Part shown: piece by piece, positions 1,529 through 15,448 of the stretch | Layout of the letters: every line of letters begins with the position of its first letter | How positions within the stretch are numbered: the stretch's first letter is position 1 | Source of the DNA: an uncultured Bacteroidia bacterium | GTDB taxonomy: Bacteria > Bacteroidota > Bacteroidia > Bacteroidales > F082 | Length of the DNA: 64,000 bases | Direction of reading: 5' to 3' | Assembly: GCA_902770835.1 (NCBI GenBank) | Contig: CACXUM010000032.1 | Location: 1 to 64,000, forward strand | The notes under the pieces: generated by a model | Database searches by the model: none | What the model saw: only the letters and a program-made list of their open reading frames with translations | What the model was told of the DNA's origin: nothing | Position numbers and translations under genes: made by a program

Positions 1529-2929
1529 TTAATTCTGACGCGCGGAACGCACCGGACGCACAGATAGACCGGCCTCGCGGTTGCCGTAGATGCCCATGAA
1601 GCAATCGCCCGAATAGAAGCCGAGGTACCACGCGCGGCCCGGATTCTCCGTGTAGAGCGAACTCGACCAGCAGTAGCCGTACGTGCCAGCATTGCGGAAA
1701 CTCGCCCCACCGCGGTAGCCGGCCGCGGGCAGGAAGAGGCTGTTGCCGTTCGTCGCGGTGAAGAGTCTGCCGTTCACGCCGTTCTGCTGCGTCCAGGTTA
1801 CGGTCGTGTTGCTGTAGAGTTCCTCGAACTCTTCTTTGGTGGGCATACGCCAGTCGGTGCCCCAGTTGGCCGTGGCCGCGTCATCGCTTGGCTGCAAAGT
1901 TGTCAAGTTGTCGGTGAAGCCATTGTAGCCGTAGCTGGCATTGTTGCAGTACTTGGTCATCGTGTGGTCACTGCCCATGCAGTACTGGTAGGTGCTCCAT
2001 TTATAGGTGACCTTGGGCTGCGTCTCGCCCCAAGCAAAGTAGTCGCCGTAGTCCTCGGGATTGTCGGCACCCACGTTGCAGGTGGCCCAAAGCAAGCCGC
2101 TCGGCAGGCCGAGGTCGACATATTCATGAGCCACATTAGATGTAGAAACCATTATGTCTATTCCCATAGTCAAATACCCGTTATTTCTAATGGCAGGCAC
2201 AGCACCGCGAGTACCCGTAAATGCTCCATCTTCGGAATAGGCAGTACCGTCTTCGCCTGTCTCAACCGCTTCTTGCGGCAAAAGGATGGCCCATTTCTCG
2301 CCGCTGCCTGCGGGCAAGGTGATAATGCCGTTTCCTTCTTGGCTATGTGTCAAAGTGTTCTCTGCAAAACTCACGGTCACTTTGTTCTTCATTCCCGTGA
2401 TGCAAGTGGCCGCCTCAGATGCCGTGGTCACGTTGAACTTTACCAAAGCGCATTTGTTCAACAACATAGCCGTGTAGGTCGTTTCGCCTGAATCGTAGTT
2501 TTCGTTGGACGGGGCGTATTCTATCACGGGCAAATGTTCTGTCTGGTCAGAGATGACCACCGAGCAGGTCGTTGTAGTGCCTGCCGCGAGGGTTTCGGCG
2601 GGAGCGACATTGCCCAAGAAATAGAAGTGAAGCGGCTCGCCCACGATGGGGTCGGTGATGCCGCCAGTGAAATTGGTGCCGTTGTAGGCCAAGGTGCCGA
2701 TGTAATGGCCACCGCTGGCCACATAAATCACATCGCCGTGTTGGTAGGTGACCTCGCCCGTAGTTGTGTTCACATCCGCCCTTGAGCCTCCATTGCTTTT
2801 GAGGTCGAGGGTGATGGTCACGGCCTCACTGCCATTTGCAGGTGTGGGCTGTTCCTCTTTTTTGCATTGCGTCAGGGCGACCAAAACCAGCAATGCCGTC
2901 ACAATAGTTCCAAATCTTTTCATGTTCAT
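1529..2929 (-). CDS. FISUMP-domain lipoprotein, fimbrillin-like N-terminus
   Basis: A 466-residue secreted lipoprotein. The N-terminus is a short hydrophobic signal ending in a lipobox (LVALTQC), followed by a charged KKEE stretch as in exported Bacteroidota lipoproteins. Residues about 35-270 resemble the first domain of fimbrillin-like proteins (ITLDLKSNGGSRA, then alternating beta segments). The C-terminal 190 residues are a Fib_succ_major (FISUMP) domain, seen from YVDLGLPSGLLWATCNVGA to the closing LSVRPVRS. FISUMP domains occur on surface-exposed proteins of gut Bacteroidota and Fibrobacter and their exact role is unknown. The start codon overlaps the stop of the upstream 122-residue gene (ATGA), so the two are translationally coupled. 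Confidence 0.85.
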   Translation of the reverse strand: MNMKRFGTIVTALLVLVALTQCKKEEQPTPANGSEAVTITLDLKSNGGSRADVNTTTGEVTYQHGDVIYVASGGHYIGTLAYNGTNFTGGITDPIVGEPLHFYFLGNVAPAETLAAGTTTTCSVVISDQTEHLPVIEYAPSNENYDSGETTYTAMLLNKCALVKFNVTTASEAATCITGMKNKVTVSFAENTLTHSQEGNGIITLPAGSGEKWAILLPQEAVETGEDGTAYSEDGAFTGTRGAVPAIRNNGYLTMGIDIMVSTSNVAHEYVDLGLPSGLLWATCNVGADNPEDYGDYFAWGETQPKVTYKWSTYQYCMGSDHTMTKYCNNASYGYNGFTDNLTTLQPSDDAATANWGTDWRMPTKEEFEELYSNTTVTWTQQNGVNGRLFTATNGNSLFLPAAGYRGGASFRNAGTYGYCWSSSLYTENPGRAWYLGFYSGDCFMGIYGNREAGLSVRPVRSARQN

Positions 2930-3294
2930 TTTTCCTTTCTGTTTTGATTTTTCTTTGATTTTAATGCTGAATAGCCGATGCCCGCCGTAAGCAGGAAAAA
3001 CAATCCGCTTCCCAATGGGGCACCAAATGTTTGGCCCGTAATGTTGCCGTTTGTGACACCAAAACCTTGGCCTGTGAGGTCGCCGCTTGTGGCTCCGAAT
3101 CCTTGACCCGTGAAGTAGCCTCCAACCGCGCCCTCGCTCCTACCCATTAGGCCGTTGATGTTGCCATTTCCGCTGTTTGCCTCATCTGCAACACCGCGCC
3201 GAAACATACCTTCTTGAGCCGACATGCCAACGGGCAACAACGACAAAACAGCCATCGCCAACAGCACTTTAGGTTTCATCTTGAATTTCTTCAT
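2926..3294 (-). CDS. small secreted repeat protein with PLGSGL C-terminal tag
   Basis: A 122-residue protein starting at MKKFKMKPKV. The frame is open further upstream, but the signal peptide (ending about GMSAQ) fixes this start. The mature part is Gly/Asn-rich with three imperfect repeats around TGQGFG/TGQTFG. The C-terminus is PLGSGL, a hydrophobic helix (FFLLTAGIGYSAL) and a basic tail (KSKKNQNRKEK). This tripartite end resembles the C-terminal sorting signals (PEP-CTERM-like, PID-CTERM) read by exosortases or rhombosortases in other lineages. That function is inferred, since no sorting enzyme is in the window. It is translationally coupled to the downstream FISUMP lipoprotein. Confidence 0.75.
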   Translation of the reverse strand: MKKFKMKPKVLLAMAVLSLLPVGMSAQEGMFRRGVADEANSGNGNINGLMGRSEGAVGGYFTGQGFGATSGDLTGQGFGVTNGNITGQTFGAPLGSGLFFLLTAGIGYSALKSKKNQNRKEK

Positions 3295-3619
3295 CGTTTG
3301 ACCTTTATGTTTGCAGCAGACTCCCAATGCCGTATGATAATCGTCTATTACCCTGAAACATAAAGAAAAAGCGCGGGAGTCAAAACTATTGCTCATCCCG
3401 CATACTGAGGCTCTCGCATTGCCCATCGTCCGAGGATAAGCAATGCCGAAGCCCCCGCTATTCGATATACATAAAAAGGTATATACGAACAAAGGGACGT
3501 CAAGCCTTGCTTTACCAAGCGGACGATTAGAATTTGCGAGATTCAGTATGCCGCAGATAAAACGTCAGTTCAACGTCTTTCTGTTATGTTTGCTGCTTCC
3601 TTTCATGGAAACAGCGTTG

Positions 3620-10186: not shown

Positions 10187-11371
10187 ATGAGAGCAAAAAC
10201 ACATAACAATTGCACCTCCTTGAAGGAAGCATTGTCAAGAATTCCCAAAAACATATTGATTACATTCTCCGAACATTTTGACGCAGCCATACCCCAATCA
10301 CTTCCGAAAGAGGAATTTGCCGAAAAGTTGAGTTCGGCCTTGCTTGCCTCAGCCCCTGAATGGCTGAAAAAACTGCCTCCATACGACATTGGAATCCTCA
10401 AGGAACTTTCCAACGTCGAGCCCGGCACAAGGCTCGTGAAACCAAGACTTTATTTCCCTTTGCCTTCCGTCATTTACAACTTCCTGCAAGTAGACGAAGA
10501 AAAATCCTTGGAAAACGAGACCATTACCTACTATCTGACCAAAGATATACACACCGCCGTTTCCTCCTGTATTTTCGATGTGTTCGACAACGACCTGATG
10601 CGTGAGTATCAACAATTGCAGCAATACGCTTACGGACTTCTGGCACTTTACGGCATCCTTCCCGTCGATCAATTCTGTGATGAAATCGAGTTTTTCCCAT
10701 TCACATCTGAGGAAACCATCAATGAACTCATCAAGATGTTGAGCTTGTCGGAATTGTTTTTTATGCATTCCAACCAGATAGACGAAAAGAAAGACGAAGT
10801 CGTGTTGGTGTCACCTTGGGTCGAGGATTCAAAAAAGGTTTGGAAAGAAATCCAAAAACGGAAGGAAATCCCTTACAAAGTATTTGAATACGAAGAAATT
10901 ATGGCAGCCGGACAACTACCCTACCCTGCCTTTACAAGCGAGTTCACGAAAGACCTGATGGACTTGCTCAATTATACTGACATCACCTTCAAGGACAAAA
11001 AAACCTTCGAACCGGCCGAACAAACACTGACCGACATTTGGTTCAGTATACAAGAAGGGAGATCACCAGTAGCAGGCATTGAAGCGATGCTTGCTGATTT
11101 CCCGTCGAAGCACAGAAAACTGACCGACGAAGTCGTCGGCCTATACTCAAACTACCAAAACTCCTTGCCCCGCTGGGACTTGAAAGGACATTCGCCCGCC
11201 GAAGCCTTCGAAATGGGCATCAATCTCCCAAAAGAGAAAGAATACAGTCCCGAATCTTTCATCGAATCAAACGACATTCCATTTGTCAATGCCAGTCCGA
11301 AAATCGGGCGCAACGAACCTTGCCCCTGCGGAAGCGGCAAGAAATACAAGAACTGCTGCGGGAGGAATTAA
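10187..11371 (+). CDS. SEC-C motif protein, unknown function
   Basis: A 394-residue cytoplasmic protein ending in a SEC-C zinc-binding motif ([17 protein letters not shown]), the type also found at the end of SecA, where it binds zinc and SecB or ribosomes. The remaining 370 residues are mostly helical and not recognised. SEC-C-tailed orphan proteins are common in Bacteroidota and Firmicutes and often of unknown role. The gene has its own promoter and ends tail-to-tail with the DUF6155 gene, sharing TTAA. Confidence 0.8.
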
Positions 11372-11883
11372 CCATACAAGGCTTCGTCATATATATCTTG
11401 CATGGTATCAGGGAATCCCCAGCCACAAGGCGAGGTAAGCCTTATGAGTTGCTTGATTCGCTTTTCGTTGGCATCCAGCAGCCCATTCTTTTTCAAGAAT
11501 TCGACAGCGCGTGCAAAGTTGTTTTCCACCGAAGTATAAAATGCTTCCCACATGTCGCCATACTCATACGAAAACTGGCAGGCTTGCTCGCAATAAAACA
11601 GCATCAAATCGGCAACGAGCTCGGGTGCTGGTTTAAGTTTCATAAAATCATTGACAGCCTTTCGGCACACGCTGAATCGCGTTTTCGGTTCACCGCGCGA
11701 AGGATAGAATTCGTTTTCAATGATTTTTTTGTATTCGTCCAATTTGCTTTTTTCGTTAGGGTTCAAATAGAACTCCAAATACTCTTTTGCCTCTTTTCGG
11801 GCATCATACAATTCCATCACCATTTCGATGATTTCATCCTTTTCTAAAGTTTTCAGCTGTTTCTTTAGTTGGGCTTTTGACAT
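11368..11883 (-). CDS. DUF6155 family protein
   Basis: A 171-residue helical cytoplasmic protein. The N-terminus ([18 protein letters not shown]), the [10 protein letters not shown] segment and the FYPSRGEPK segment match my memory of the DUF6155 family, which has no known function. A TACTTTTG promoter on the minus strand (11901-11908) lies directly after the terminator of the preceding lipoprotein gene. It overlaps the SEC-C gene by four bases at the stop codons. Confidence 0.65.
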
Positions 11884-11923
11884 GATGGATTATTTGGGTA
11901 CAAAAGTATTGATTTTTCAAATA

Positions 11924-11959
11924 CAAAAACAGCACACCCGAAATTTTCGGATGCGCTAG
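11924..11959 (-). terminator. hairpin terminator of the 11994-12746 lipoprotein gene
   Basis: Read on the minus strand, an imperfect stem (AGCGCATCCGAAA pairing with TTTCGGGTGTGCT) is followed by TTTTTG. Almost the same 35-base sequence occurs at 15503-15541 after tsf, so it belongs to a dispersed terminator family. The T-tract runs into the promoter region of the next gene. Confidence 0.7.
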
Positions 11960-11993
11960 TTTTAACTTCTTCGCCATCCATTCTATCTCTATC

Positions 11994-12746
11994 TCAAAAC
12001 TCAATATAATTCCATGTTATTCTTAACTCACCATTATCACTTTTTGTTCGTTTTAGACAAACCTCATTGCATTTGTTGCCATATCCGTCATAAGTGTGCC
12101 CTCCTTCATATGTATACCCTTCTATAGGATATCTTCTATATCCATAACCTTCTTTAGGCAAATAGATTACCCCATTTCTATTATTATAATAAACTTTCCG
12201 AAAAATCTCCTGAATCTCAGGATCCAAATTGCCATCCACTTCAGGTAGATCTCTAACTCCCGTCAACCAACCTTCTACCTCCTTCATTTCACGCTTAAAC
12301 CTATAGACATTATTACCGTATTTATCATATACAGGTTTACCATGACTATCTTGAACATAATACTGATTCTCTTCGAACAACTTTTCCGCAACACAAAGTG
12401 CCATTGTCCATTCTGCAATATACGGATTATAATCCATTTCATCATCAAACTTTACTACTTCTTCATATTGTTTTCTATCTCCATTTTCAATCTTTACACA
12501 ATTATACATAACGAACAATCCATAAAACCTATGGTATTTCTCAGTATCACGATTATTATATGCTATTTGATATGACCAATATTCATCAATGACAGCATCG
12601 TTAATCACATCATTGTTTGCAGTTTGGGGAGCATCATGCCTTTCTACGGATTGAGGGGCATCACAGGCTCCCATCACAAACACCAAAAACATAAACAGAA
12701 CTGATTTTACCACTGAATTTACTATAGCAAAATTGAATTTTTTCAT
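11994..12746 (-). CDS. putative lipoprotein, unknown function
   Basis: A 250-residue exported protein with a signal sequence and lipobox (VFVMGAC). The mature part is rich in Asp, Asn and Tyr, and includes several Tyr-Gly motifs (GYGYRRYPIEGYTYEGG), without a recognised domain. The gene is AT-richer than its neighbours, suggesting an accessory origin. A TATTTTTG promoter on the minus strand lies at 12771-12778, 25 bases before the start. Confidence 0.65.
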   Translation of the reverse strand: MKKFNFAIVNSVVKSVLFMFLVFVMGACDAPQSVERHDAPQTANNDVINDAVIDEYWSYQIAYNNRDTEKYHRFYGLFVMYNCVKIENGDRKQYEEVVKFDDEMDYNPYIAEWTMALCVAEKLFEENQYYVQDSHGKPVYDKYGNNVYRFKREMKEVEGWLTGVRDLPEVDGNLDPEIQEIFRKVYYNNRNGVIYLPKEGYGYRRYPIEGYTYEGGHTYDGYGNKCNEVCLKRTKSDNGELRITWNYIEF

Positions 12747-12835
12747 CGTACAAGTTACGTTATATTATTATGCAAAAATAGAGAATCAAGCTAAATTTCA
12801 TACATTTTTATTACATCCCATTTCAATAGGGAAAG

Positions 12836-13051
12836 CTATCCATTTTGGATAAACTCCTCAAAGAAATTATAGTCCAAAATATCGGAAATACGTTTCAACG
12901 TGTCGGTATTAATGGAGGCATTGGCATATACCTTATACAAATGGTTAGGTGTGCAAGGAATTTGTTTGGCGAGCCAAACAGTGGTTCGGCCTTGCTCTTT
13001 CAGCACAGCCTTAATCCTGTTCCCAATATGTACCTCCTTGACCTTCGACAT
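12836..13051 (-). CDS. mini-HTH (XRE-like) regulator, copy A
   Basis: A 71-residue protein starting MSKVKEVHIGNRIKAVLKEQ and containing one helix-turn-helix (TTVWLAKQIPCTPNHLYKVYA). It is 67/71 identical to copy B at 14003-14218. The frame is open upstream without an ATG shared by the two copies; the ATG at 13051 is the first start conserved in both. It probably binds DNA. It is preceded by a long structured leader (13052-13240). Promoter: TATTTTTG on the minus strand at 13303-13310. Confidence 0.75.
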   Translation of the reverse strand: MSKVKEVHIGNRIKAVLKEQGRTTVWLAKQIPCTPNHLYKVYANASINTDTLKRISDILDYNFFEEFIQNG

Positions 13052-13240
13052 AAAAAATGCGTGGAATTGTATTTCTTGCTCAAGTTCAAGGGGTTCCACG
13101 CCCTACCAATCTAACAAGCTATTCCACGCCGTAATAAATACGGCATTTCATAACTAATCCTCGATCGGTTTGTCCTCCAAAAGGAGGACGAATGGAACTT
13201 TTGAACTTGAGGACAGCTATAAACGCTATCTTATTTATAT
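13052..13240 (-). ncRNA. structured leader RNA, copy A (candidate attenuator)
   Basis: Transcribed on the minus strand ahead of mini-HTH copy A. Visible pairings are: outer stem P1, CTCAAGTTCAA plus GTTCCA (13193-13211) with TGGAAC plus TTGAACTTGAG (13079-13098); hairpin P2, GTCCTCC/GGAGGAC (13172-13189); hairpin P3, GCCGTA/TACGGC (13128-13144). TTCCACGC (13059-13066), followed by TTTTTT just before the start codon, can instead pair with GCGTGGAA inside the leader, giving a terminator-like alternative. Copy B keeps P1, P2 and P3 with different bases, so the pairing is supported by covariation. The class is not recognised. Confidence 0.65.
13111..13146 (-). CDS. 11-codon upstream reading frame, copy A
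   Basis: ATG to TAG encoding MPYLLRRGIAC, inside the structured leader and spanning hairpin P3 and the first GCGTGGAA. Copy B (14277-14312) encodes MPYLVRRGMTC. Of the five codon differences two are silent and three are conservative, and both frames end at the same TAG. It could be a leader peptide whose translation selects between the alternative stems. Translation is not proven. Confidence 0.4.
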   Translation of the reverse strand: MPYLLRRGIAC

Positions 13241-13379
13241 GTTTGGTTATGTTGTTTTTGCTTTTCTACATGTATGCAATAATTTGTTGTTGTATTCGGG
13301 TGCAAAAATATGAAATTATCTTTCTTATACATTGGGTGACATCCTCACAAGCTGAATTGTGCTTATCAGCCATCTGAAT

Positions 13380-13916
13380 TTAGCTTAATGAGGTCTGTAA
13401 TTGATTGCACTCGCGAAGATATTCTATCTCATCGGCATCAAGGCCAGCTTCACGGGCAATGTCTTCCCATTTTATGGCAAAATCGCGTGCCGTGGACTGC
13501 CAAGCTACATCGTGGGAGATTTCCTTGATTTCATCGTATGGCATCTGTCCATAGCGACGGATAGCATCGTCAAGTTCGTCGCGCTCGGTTTTGGAGAGCT
13601 TTGACAAATTGGCATCCTGCAGTGGGTTTACATACATCCATTGCTCCACCTTGAAATACTCGCCAAGACCTTCTGTATCATTCATATAGGAATCACCTCT
13701 GACAATTTTCAACATATCATAGATGCGCGACGGAACAGGCCCCGCATCCATGGCTATGTAAGTGTCACCAGTAATGGGTCTGCCCCAATTGGCAAGATGC
13801 TGCCTGTCGGCAAAATACAGGATCTTGAAAACCTTATGGAAATCCTTGCGACCTATACGATTAGCCACATAGAGCATCGCATTCAATGCTTTGGTCTTGT
13901 CAAACTCTTGTTTCAT
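13380..13916 (-). CDS. Panacea (DUF4065) domain protein
   Basis: A 178-residue protein with a Panacea/DUF4065 domain over most of its length: ALNAMLYVANRI, FHKVFKILYFADRQHL, GRPITGDTYIAMDAGPVPS. The family includes SocA and the Panacea antitoxins that neutralise diverse toxins in PanAT modules. No partner toxin is adjacent; the neighbours are the two mini-HTH genes. It has its own TATTTTTG promoter on the minus strand (13938-13945). It could be an orphan antitoxin, or its partner may be one of the small neighbours. Confidence 0.85.
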   Translation of the reverse strand: MKQEFDKTKALNAMLYVANRIGRKDFHKVFKILYFADRQHLANWGRPITGDTYIAMDAGPVPSRIYDMLKIVRGDSYMNDTEGLGEYFKVEQWMYVNPLQDANLSKLSKTERDELDDAIRRYGQMPYDEIKEISHDVAWQSTARDFAIKWEDIAREAGLDADEIEYLRECNQLQTSLS

Positions 13917-14002
13917 CGACTTTTATGAAATTTATGGCAAAAATAAGGATTATTCCACAATCCGCAATGGTATTTCCGAAAAAAAACTTCTGAAGTCGAA
14001 CT

Positions 14003-14218
14003 CTATCCATTTTGGATAAACTCTCCAAAAAAGTTGTAATCCAAAATCTCGGAAATGCGCTTCAGCAGGTCAGTATTAATTGAGGCATTGGCATACACCT
14101 TATACAAATGGTTGGGCGTGCAAGGAATCTGTTTGGCGAGCCAAACCGTGGTTCTGCCTTGCTCTTTCAGCACGGCCTTAATCCTGTTCCCAATATGTAC
14201 CTCCTTGACCTTCGACAT
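14003..14218 (-). CDS. mini-HTH (XRE-like) regulator, copy B
   Basis: A 71-residue paralogue of 12836-13051, differing at four positions near the C-terminus (for example TDLLKRISEILDY instead of TDTLKRISDILDY). The duplication covers the gene and its whole leader, about 400 bases, with the Panacea gene between the copies. The same start is chosen as in copy A. A likely DNA-binding regulator. Confidence 0.75.
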   Translation of the reverse strand: MSKVKEVHIGNRIKAVLKEQGRTTVWLAKQIPCTPNHLYKVYANASINTDLLKRISEILDYNFFGEFIQNG

Positions 14219-14403
14219 AAAAAATGCGTGGAATTTATCTCTTGCTTGAATGTCAGGGTTACCACGCCCCACTCGTCTAACAAGTCATTCCACGCCGTAC
14301 CAAGTACGGCATTTCGTAACTAATCCTTGACAGGTTGTCCTCGTAAAGAGGACGGGTGGTAATTTGAGATTCAAGGACAGCTATAAACGCTATCTTATTT
14401 ATA
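14219..14403 (-). ncRNA. structured leader RNA, copy B (candidate attenuator)
   Basis: Homologue of 13052-13240. P1: CTTGAAT (14369-14375 on the minus strand) with ATTCAAG (14245-14251), and TTACCAC (14356-14362) with GTGGTAA (14259-14265). P2: GTCCTC/GAGGAC (14337-14353). P3: GCCGTAC/GTACGGC (14294-14310). TTCCACGC (14226-14233) followed by TTTTTT precedes the start codon and can pair with GCGTGGAA (14288-14295). P1 differs strongly in sequence from copy A yet still pairs. The promoter is not clear; the 5' end of homology is the block AGATAGCGTTTATAGCTGTC. Confidence 0.65.
14277..14312 (-). CDS. 11-codon upstream reading frame, copy B
   Basis: Encodes MPYLVRRGMTC and a TAG stop inside the copy B leader, matching the copy A frame in length, position and most residues. 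Possible leader peptide; no experimental support. Confidence 0.4.
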   Translation of the reverse strand: MPYLVRRGMTC

Positions 14404-14492
14404 CTTATATTTTACTTTGCTACTATATTATATTGATATTTAACTATTTAAAGATTCTTATAATGAAAAACACAAGTCTATTTTGAATTGGG

Positions 14493-15014
14493 TCAGAAAG
14501 CTGCTGCGTGGGCGACCACCTTTTTCAAGGCAGAAATTGGGAATCCGATTTTCAGAAGCAATTCCTCCAACCGGCTGCGTTCCTTATAGGGAATGGTCAA
14601 CTCGTATGTCATCAGCTCATTAGCATCCACAGTCGGTATCGGTTCAAAAGCATAGTATGAATCCGGTTCGGGCAAGTAATCTTCGGGTAGTGACGAAGGT
14701 TGAACTAATTTTACATTATGATAGCGCAAGTCATTGTCGACATCCACCGAATAGAGAAAACCATCGTTGGGATTTGCGACGAGTTCACGCAAAGTCAGTT
14801 CTTTCCCGATATATTTCTGAAGATTGGCCAAATTGACCCGAAACACAAGCCAGCGATTGTCGGTATCGTCTCTGTCAACCCAATAGAACAGATAGTCGTC
14901 ACCTTTGCTGCTGACATAATGCGAAAGAAACGGACCGTCAAAATAGACAAGGTCGGCCATCTTCTTGAAGCCGCTGAAATCAAACTGTAAATCGAAGCCT
15001 TCTATCTGTCTCAT
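14493..15014 (-). CDS. DUF6575-like protein
   Basis: A 173-residue cytoplasmic protein. The YFDGPFLSHYVSSKGDDYLF, FYWVDRDDTDNRWLVFRV and LTLRELV segments match my memory of the DUF6575 family (a small beta-rich domain of unknown function). The second half is not recognised. Its start overlaps the stop of the upstream 145-residue gene (ATGA), so the two form a coupled bicistron, as in many toxin-antitoxin or small defence modules. The family name is given with moderate certainty. Confidence 0.6.
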   Translation of the reverse strand: MRQIEGFDLQFDFSGFKKMADLVYFDGPFLSHYVSSKGDDYLFYWVDRDDTDNRWLVFRVNLANLQKYIGKELTLRELVANPNDGFLYSVDVDNDLRYHNVKLVQPSSLPEDYLPEPDSYYAFEPIPTVDANELMTYELTIPYKERSRLEELLLKIGFPISALKKVVAHAAAF

Positions 15015-15448
15015 AATATCTTCGTTATTTTGAAAGTTTTGTTCAAATCACAATTTTCGTATTCGTAAAAGTCAAAATGACCATTGGAGCTCTCCGAGGT
15101 CTTCATTCCGTCCTCATTGGTCAAAGTCCCTTCAGCCAAGGCATCTCCTATGGAAATTACGGCATTTTTGAAGGCTTTTCGCAAATGGGCATAAAATGAT
15201 TCTGCCTGATGCTCAGTGACAAAACACGATAGCGCAAGCAAAGAAGTGTTGCTCCTTCCTTTGGCGACATCCTGAAGCATCCGTTTTGGGTGGGCTACAT
15301 ACTGAGGGATATGGTTCCGACCGTCGTTAGAGGAAAACACAAAACGACACGCTTGCATATTGTTAGGTGCATACAAAGGCGGCAACAAACAACCTTCCTT
15401 CACCAACTGATCAATCCATTTTTGATATTTGAACTTCTTCTCTTGCAC
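15011..15448 (-). CDS. uncharacterised protein, first gene of a two-gene operon
   Basis: A 145-residue soluble protein starting with GTG (a TGA lies upstream in frame, so no ATG start is available). It is not recognised. Visible traits are a Trp/Lys-rich N-terminus, a PLYAPNNMQACRF segment, and an acidic aromatic tail (GHFDFYEYENCDL). It is the upstream partner of the DUF6575-like gene, with a 4-base overlap. The promoter at 15477-15484 follows the tsf terminator directly. Confidence 0.6.
   Translation of the reverse strand: MQEKKFKYQKWIDQLVKEGCLLPPLYAPNNMQACRFVFSSNDGRNHIPQYVAHPKRMLQDVAKGRSNTSLLALSCFVTEHQAESFYAHLRKAFKNAVISIGDALAEGTLTNEDGMKTSESSNGHFDFYEYENCDLNKTFKITKIL

Follow-up and report, generated by a model that had tools for sequence, protein, structure and literature searches.

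A structured leader RNA class scattered across Bacteroidota, with a candidate antiterminator and terminator, in front of small HTH genes and other genes

Introduction

In the stretch of DNA analysed here (64,000 nt, the window), two small HTH genes lie behind homologous leader sequences, which raises the question of what these leaders are and whether they belong to the HTH protein or to a wider set of genes. A sequence-only reading of the locus had taken them for a conserved RNA structure of no known class, acting either as a cis-regulatory RNA or as an RNA partner of the HTH protein.

Results

Leader RNAs in the window

The two segments (13052-13240 and 14219-14403) proved homologous, as had been proposed, and both lead into 71-aa HTH genes that are 96% identical. 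The unit of leader and HTH gene is duplicated, a SocA/Panacea gene sits between the copies, and the window holds a third leader copy. Leaders and HTH genes are on the minus strand, which the sequence-only reading did not state; the local hairpins that it described (P2 and its P3) are palindromic and look alike on both strands.

1529-2929: lipoprotein with a Lcl_C/FISUMP-type domain, behind the secreted-like gene of copy C
2926..3294, minus strand: small secreted-like protein, downstream of copy C
3362..3590, minus strand: copy C, a third leader RNA whose P4 region is longer, preceding a small secreted protein and a lipoprotein
11994..12746, minus strand: putative lipoprotein downstream of HTH-A, no Pfam match
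12836..13051, minus strand: HTH-A, 71 aa, HTH_26 (Cro/C1 type), 22.1 bits at a cut-off of 22
13050..13241, minus strand: leader RNA copy A, matching positions 1-184 of model R2, fold z -7.4
13380..13916, minus strand: SocA/Panacea-domain gene downstream of HTH-B (Pfam PF13274, E 1.8e-23)
14003..14218, minus strand: HTH-B, 71 aa, 96% identical to HTH-A
14217..14406, minus strand: leader RNA copy B, R2 model positions 1-184, fold z -4.1

Copy A folded at -70.8 kcal/mol (z -7.4) and copy B at -57.6 kcal/mol (z -4.1), each better than 200 of 200 dinucleotide shuffles.

The HTH genes of the window lie in a variable-gene spot adjoining tsf/rpsB (11368-15448, and loci L035-L045), where toxin-antitoxin-like, HTH and lipoprotein genes vary by genome and the RNA-HTH unit is interspersed repeatedly in some. 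Gene pairs resembling the secreted-like protein and lipoprotein behind copy C also carry the RNA elsewhere in the same genome (L135-L138, L142).

Helices of the window subtype

The helices of copy A are as follows.

13212..13230, minus strand: HP0, the 5' hairpin GATAGC..GCTGTC
13203..13211, minus strand: P1a 5' arm, overlapping at its start with strand x, which alternatively pairs with x' (13159-13163)
13172..13189, minus strand: P2 hairpin GTCCTCC..GGAGGAC, in the window subtype, with both sides changed in 5 of its 7 pairs across 15 leaders
13127..13145, minus strand: P4 hairpin ATGCCGTA..TACGGCGT, candidate antiterminator, 98.7% paired class-wide
13121..13129, minus strand: P5 5' arm GCGTGGAAT, its first bases common to P4
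13106..13111, minus strand: P3 3' arm, pairing with 13163-13168
13079..13087, minus strand: P1a 3' arm
13059..13067, minus strand: P5 3' arm ATTCCACGC, candidate terminator stem, pairing with 13121-13129
13052..13057, minus strand: U-run, directly before the HTH start codon

P2 has the form first described (GTCCTCC/GGAGGAC in copy A, GTCCTC/GAGGAC in copy B), as does the hairpin GCCGTA/TACGGC, then called P3 and here P4, and the outer stem was recovered by folding each copy. The earlier reading overlooked the helix between the two outer arms (P3 in the present naming), the alternative pairings of the same strands, and the 9-bp stem of GCGTGGAAT with ATTCCACGC that is followed by a U-run immediately before the HTH start codon.

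Covariation was measured in an alignment, made by sequence alone, of 15 leaders of the window subtype, copies A and B included (A2), with column shuffles and slid helices as controls. HP0, P1a, P2, P3 and P4 had 96.4% of cells paired, compared with 32-46% for slid helices, and 16 pairs were changed on both sides, a number reached by none of 500 shuffles. P5 (nine pairs) was nearly invariant, with 99.3% of cells paired. Helices x:x', y:y' and P5 barely vary in this subtype (37 of 500 shuffles reached the single observed change) and therefore carry little covariation. One case of a triple change was seen in copy A, where T47C, A102G and A186G (A2 columns) leave strand x pairable with both partners. 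By eye, the window subtype has a weak P7 or none, and P6 (GGG..CCC) and P1b are kept.

Distribution of the class

Two models were built. R1 came from an alignment of 20 more diverged leaders (A3) and, being trained on HTH-linked leaders, favours such leaders in its searches; R2 is a covariance model of 70 R1 matches, none of them of the window subtype. The window leaders were found weakly by R1 (copy A, 21.0 bits, E 0.037; copy B, 18.7 bits, E 0.12). With R2, copy A scored 44.3 bits (E 1.2e-5 in 160 kb, 2.4e-4 genome-wide), copy B 35.9 bits (E 4e-4 in 160 kb, 0.0085 genome-wide) and copy C 43.4 bits (E 1.8e-5; 3.7e-4 genome-wide), and copies A and B matched full length a model that contained no member of their subtype. 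Judged by these model matches, the window leaders are a divergent subtype of a structured RNA class scattered across Bacteroidota.

Among related genomes R1 matched 103 of 149, at best with E 1.7e-38, and across the phylum it matched 26 of 296. It also matched all 16 genomes of other families, which had been picked for having matches; these had up to 24 matches, with at least two opposite-strand duplicates. R2 matched 42 of the 296 phylum genomes, from 26 of 140 genera. In the genus every one of the 40 genomes had R2 matches, from 1 to 25 each and ten or more in 20 genomes; such numbers may include the opposite strand of the same copy (as seen for genome G105). The genome of the window itself had 22 R2 matches at E<=1 and 15 at E<=1e-3.

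Among named carriers were plasmids of Chryseobacterium shandongense (Flavobacteriia) and Rhizosphaericola mali (Chitinophagia). A core sequence of 16 bases from the RNA occurred in 19 IMG/VR contigs, and R2 confirmed four of these (L314, with two leaders in tandem, L315, L319 and L313). The confirmed contigs are probably integrative elements, with tyrosine-integrase-like, MobC-like or transposase-like proteins nearby by eye. Two further core patterns gave nothing in viral contigs, and neither did BLASTN of two leaders against phages.

The expectation that the RNA belongs to no known class agreed with Rfam 15 (4227 models), which at the gathering score had no match on any RNA copy of the window and 40 loci. 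A permissive search of the window (E<=5) returned only one unrelated chance-level match on the other strand, and one of eight loci returned none on the RNA, with matches elsewhere in L109 and L174. The window also carries a SAM-II riboswitch (RF01726; 25733-25792, plus strand, 64 bits).

Among papers screened by the start of their abstracts, we recognised none that describes this leader RNA. The accessible part of PMC8040213 lists two candidates from Bacteroidetes, HMP2_1881 (radical SAM genes nearby) and HMP2_1032 (TonB nearby); these, known here by their description and not by their sequence, could be fragments of the class, pieces of which may lie among the thousands of motifs in that paper. 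The accessible part of PMC11109978 contains no mention of Bacteroid-, Flavobacter-, SusC or Chryseobacterium. Both the class and its plan of two self-complementary hairpins appear to be new; its kind, a cis-acting leader with a terminator, is already known.

Architecture and covariation across the class

The leaders are about 190 nt long, with a class range of about 165-230 nt. From 5' to 3' the order is HP0, x, P1a, P7, P3, x', P4, y, P3', P6, P1a', y', the P5 3' arm and a U-run. P7 is the hairpin GAAAA-CUGGUAA-UUUUC, P4 is GCUCACGC/GCGUGGGC, y and y' are ACUUAU and GAUAAG, P6 is GGUA-UACCAG-UACC, and the P5 3' arm is CCCACGC before the U-run. The 5' half (x, P1a, P7, P3, x') is complementary to the 3' half (y, P3', P6, P1a', y'), and the complementarity of the P7 loop to the P6 loop (P1b) is kept in many different sequences. 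An AAAAGCG (5') to CGCUUUU (3') pairing, seen in the folds of some other families, was rejected as a class-wide element.

Both ways of pairing the halves left a record of compensating change. In a phylum-wide alignment of 70 leaders (A6), the fold in which the halves pair with each other had 95.6% of cells paired and 591 cells changed on both sides, compared with 154 in shuffles, in an alignment that had been fitted to these inter-half helices. The fold with separate halves, whose helices other than HP0 were not imposed by the model, had 87.7% paired and 181 cells changed on both sides, compared with 72.5 in shuffles, and at most 53.4% paired when slid. The alignments made with MAFFT and not fitted to a structure (A2, A3) agreed: in A3, 90.7% of cells were paired, with 115 both-side changes and 38 in shuffles, and for x:x', y:y' and P5 together 91.1% were paired, with 22 changes and 5.4 in shuffles. 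A further MAFFT alignment, of 36 diverse leaders (A5), looked poor in P3 and P4 and did not enter the counts.

Tested helix by helix in 69 rows, only the x':y extension of P4 was weak (79.0% paired, 76.3% shuffled); every other helix exceeded all 300 of its 300 shuffles. The closing pairs of P7 and P6 swap between A-U and U-A, which also fits an extension of P1b; the P7 and P6 hairpins and the inter-half duplex may be alternatives. G-U cells outnumbered A-C cells by 336 to 49, so the element acts as RNA on the sense strand. Fourteen positions are conserved at >=95%, all of them in helices of one of the two folds, and A83, G203, C219, U182, U183 and U185, conserved at 99-100%, lie in or beside the P1a/P7/P3/P6 core. 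With 20 shuffles per leader, 103 of 104 had a fold z below -3; because of the relatedness of many leaders, shuffle counts are not probabilities. The conserved RNA structure that the sequence-only reading had seen in two copies thus extends across the phylum, with homologues changed on both sides of their helices.

Position between promoter and gene

13303..13310, minus strand: TAnnTTTG Bacteroidota promoter-like element (TATTTTTG), 69 nt upstream of where the RNA of copy A starts

Copy B had no TAnnTTTG within 110 nt. Across 104 leaders, 72 had this element in the 80 nt upstream of the RNA (about 5 expected) and none had it in the 80 nt downstream (2.7 expected); in a second set the counts for 80-nt flanks were 61 of 80 upstream and 3 of 80 downstream. 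This second set comprised 80 leaders of about 150 listed and excluded the 44 strongest (by the earlier, HTH-rich sets), a few others and the tail; its HTH share (5) therefore cannot stand for the genus.

The next gene was codirectional in 70 of 75 cases in the first set (upstream neighbour, 57 of 74) and in 67 of 78 in the second (upstream, 42 of 77; Fisher p 2e-5), where the distance from RNA to gene was mostly within 100 nt. The 3' end is T-rich, with a mean of 7.8 T in 12 nt, and in 37 of 104 leaders the longest terminal T-run is <=4. In several leaders from other taxonomic classes, 224-375 nt separate the RNA from a SusC-like gene; in L145, L146, L148-L151, L166, L168 and L169 the distance is 224-373 nt, and a further hairpin-like repeat is seen by eye just before that gene. 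The cis-regulatory half of the first interpretation gains from this 5'-UTR-like position between a promoter and a codirectional gene.

ATG-NNN-stop mini-ORFs occurred within about 70 nt upstream of the RNA start in 19 of 75 leaders (6.3 expected), and in a further set in 13 of 80 (6.0 expected). In other orders and classes there was one in 29 (3.0 expected), and the mini-ORF was not kept as a class-wide attenuation peptide since it is not enriched there.

Genes behind the leaders

HTH relatives occurred in 92 of 149 related genomes. At 40 HTH loci from named GTDB contigs, mostly Bacteroidales MAGs of ruminant guts, many upstream regions showed the leader with its sequence strongly altered, and leader and HTH gene were duplicated together also in L006/L038 and L011/L040. 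Four HTHs that are 81-85% identical to that of the window (L012-L015 / L041-L043, L045) lack a leader, and R2 found nothing there. By eye, the leaderless L012-L015 have a TAnnTTTG-type promoter, and the HTH of L015 directly follows tsf. Genes of the window HTH family were directly preceded, by coordinates, by 4 of the 22 R2 matches in the own genome (E<=1), and, by eye, by a single one (L079) of 30 leaders taken from 16 genomes in other families. Of 29 leaders from other orders and classes, 23 could be judged by eye on a downstream protein, and no gene of this HTH family followed any of them.

The other downstream genes were diverse, and those scanned had no pathway in common. A TonB receptor follows the RNA at L145, and others resemble it by eye. 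There were regulators (a sigma factor, a LytTR regulator, a histidine kinase), T9SS-sorted proteins, leucine-rich-repeat proteins and C10 peptidases. In L202 (1783-3230) the RNA precedes a Cys/Gly-rich leader-bearing peptide and a radical SAM enzyme, an RiPP-like arrangement; similar peptides come after the HTH in L047, L064 and L079. By a crude signal-peptide rule, secreted targets were enriched in one of two sets only: the first, which is rich in HTH genes, showed no clear difference between downstream proteins (26 of 70) and upstream ones (19 of 62), and the second had 37 of 67 downstream and 14 of 77 upstream (p 4e-6).

Defence genes recur behind the leaders, without a clean background. 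In the own genome they include Zorya ZorA (E 3e-170), a type III methylase, an EcoRI-type methylase and a type IIG enzyme, and in other genomes type I and IIG enzymes; the 10 proteins first scanned had been picked for a defence-like look. PADLOC at E<=1e-20, applied to 67 unpicked downstream proteins, found PLD-Snf2 helicases (4), type IIG enzymes (2) and other methylases; 3-4 members of the upstream control also matched candidate models and distinct members were left uncounted, so we claim no enrichment in defence genes.

Discussion

A candidate switch between two folds

These structured 5' leaders probably switch between an antiterminator and a terminator fold and so gate transcription into the gene behind them. 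The RNA starts within about 80 nt of the promoter element, and its 3' end, in front of the gene, is a stem followed by a T-rich tail. In one predicted fold the halves would pair with each other (P1a, P1b, P3), and hairpin P4 would hold GCGUGGGC. In the other the halves would separate into x:x' capped by P7, and P5 with y:y' capped by P6; GCGUGGGC would then pair with CCCACGC-UUUU, and transcription would terminate. We infer the termination, the exchange between the folds and a signal choosing between them, which might be a ligand, a protein, the ribosome or an antisense RNA. In the window, the RNA would decide whether RNA polymerase enters HTH-A, HTH-B and the secreted protein at 2926-3294.

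P4 and P5 both covary class-wide while sharing the central strand, and because GCGUGGGC is common to both, the simplest reading is an antiterminator against a terminator, with x:x' and y:y' on the terminator side. Several results speak against this reading. Where this strand departs from the consensus, P4 was paired in 75 of 75 cells and P5, not imposed in that alignment, in 34 of 75. In a nested energy model, the forced terminator fold was weaker than the best fold in seven of seven RNAs, although the gap, 14.6 kcal/mol in copy A, was only 0.1 in copy B. A standard scan for short-loop terminators found none in the window leaders, because P5 closes a large loop. The short terminal T-runs of 37 of 104 leaders, the weak x':y extension of P4, the scant covariation of x:x', y:y' and P5 in the window subtype, the lack of a TAnnTTTG near copy B and the wide gaps before some SusC-like genes count on the same side.

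Alternative explanations

A special case of the switching leader is a strict riboswitch, in which a small molecule would bind the P1a/P7/P3/P6 core and set the choice between P4 and P5. The strictly conserved positions in or beside that core and the many copies of a single architecture per genome suit it. The P1b loop pairing, however, varies as complementary pairs, and the diversity of the downstream genes, without a common pathway among those scanned, argues against a narrow metabolic ligand. We regard the strict form as possible and rather doubtful.

It is unlikely that the RNA is a free-standing trans-acting sRNA with its own promoter and terminator, whose downstream genes are reached by read-through only. 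Such an RNA would have the promoter element and T-rich end seen here and could lie 224-375 nt from a gene, as some leaders do, and multicopy sRNAs of the FopS type exist in Bacteroides according to the accessible part of PMC11697453. Against it stand the codirectional gene next door (67/78, compared with 42/77 on the other side), mostly within 100 nt, and the rarity of promoter elements within the 80 nt that follow the RNA (0/104 and 3/80). The class also has no conserved single-stranded seed, since all 14 positions conserved at >=95% are helical in one or the other of the two folds.

An element acting as DNA, such as a folded recombination site or the end of a mobile cassette, seems very improbable to us. 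The leaders are nearly palindromic, give weak model matches on the opposite strand, occur on plasmids and a few integrase-bearing contigs, and flank variable genes beside tsf in the window; yet the excess of G-U over A-C cells marks RNA on one strand, the leaders are oriented towards a gene, and the copies within a genome are, by eye, highly diverged.

That the leader is an RNA partner or RNA antitoxin of the HTH protein, as the sequence-only reading had offered as one of its two options, is the least credible account: the two are adjacent and co-duplicated, and in the genus most of the strongest matches of R1, a model trained on HTH leaders, are themselves HTH leaders, but the HTH is just one among many downstream genes (4/22, 1/30 and 0/23 leaders), close HTHs exist without the RNA, a repeat search reported no array inside the leader and the gene is not an endoribonuclease.

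Comparison with known systems

The preferred reading, a leader that switches between antiterminator and terminator folds, has partial precedents. Trp-type transcription attenuators follow a 1:2 / 2:3 / 3:4 pairing logic; the leaders resemble them in their predicted plan, in which consecutive strands could pair in either of two exclusive ways and the final pairing would be a stem before a U-run, and differ in lacking a class-wide leader peptide and in having large extra inter-half helices. With terminator-coupled riboswitches they share the 5' UTR-like position, the conserved fold and a P4 predicted to compete with a terminator-like P5, whereas they have no known ligand, variable loop sequences and scanned genes that share no pathway. 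In CopA-CopT, the antisense pair of plasmid R1, hairpins with complementary loops can open into inter-hairpin helices. The class likewise has a pair of hairpins whose loops are complementary and which may open to form inter-hairpin helices, but here both are in one transcript and the second would be the terminator. In the type III toxin-antitoxin ToxI, a tandem repeat RNA precedes an endoribonuclease gene; a repeat search reported no array within the leader, and the gene it adjoins is an HTH gene.

HTH-XRE, a structured RNA motif, overlaps the class in taxa or gene context, as do Flavo-1, Bacteroidales-1 and the like. The accessible parts of PMC2864571 and PMC9723704 name Flavo-1, Bacteroidales-1 and other Bacteroidota motifs; the class differs from these in that no Rfam family matches any RNA copy, a comparison outside which Bacteroides-2, listed there without an Rfam number, falls. 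The FopS sRNAs of Bacteroides thetaiotaomicron, as far as the accessible part of PMC11697453 describes them, have a single-stranded 5' seed and one hairpin. They are, like the class, multicopy RNAs in Bacteroidales with a terminator hairpin, which in the class is a candidate one, whereas the class is a 190-nt folded leader and does not show the FopS plan of a single-stranded seed plus one terminator hairpin.

Significance for the Bacteroidota

The RNA class spans orders and classes of a much-studied gut, rumen and environmental phylum and is seemingly absent from Rfam. The predicted exchange is directly testable in culturable Flavobacteriia, for example Chryseobacterium. As a tentative extension, which we entertain without leaning towards it, the leaders may define a phylum-wide regulon in which a kissing-hairpin, intramolecular sense/antisense pair with a four-strand exchange would gate surface, secreted and anti-phage genes through one shared signal. 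If the leaders are regulatory, one RNA-controlled regulon would join genes thought unrelated: those for SusC-like receptors, T9SS-sorted proteins, lipoproteins, RiPP-like precursors, restriction-modification, Zorya and small HTHs.
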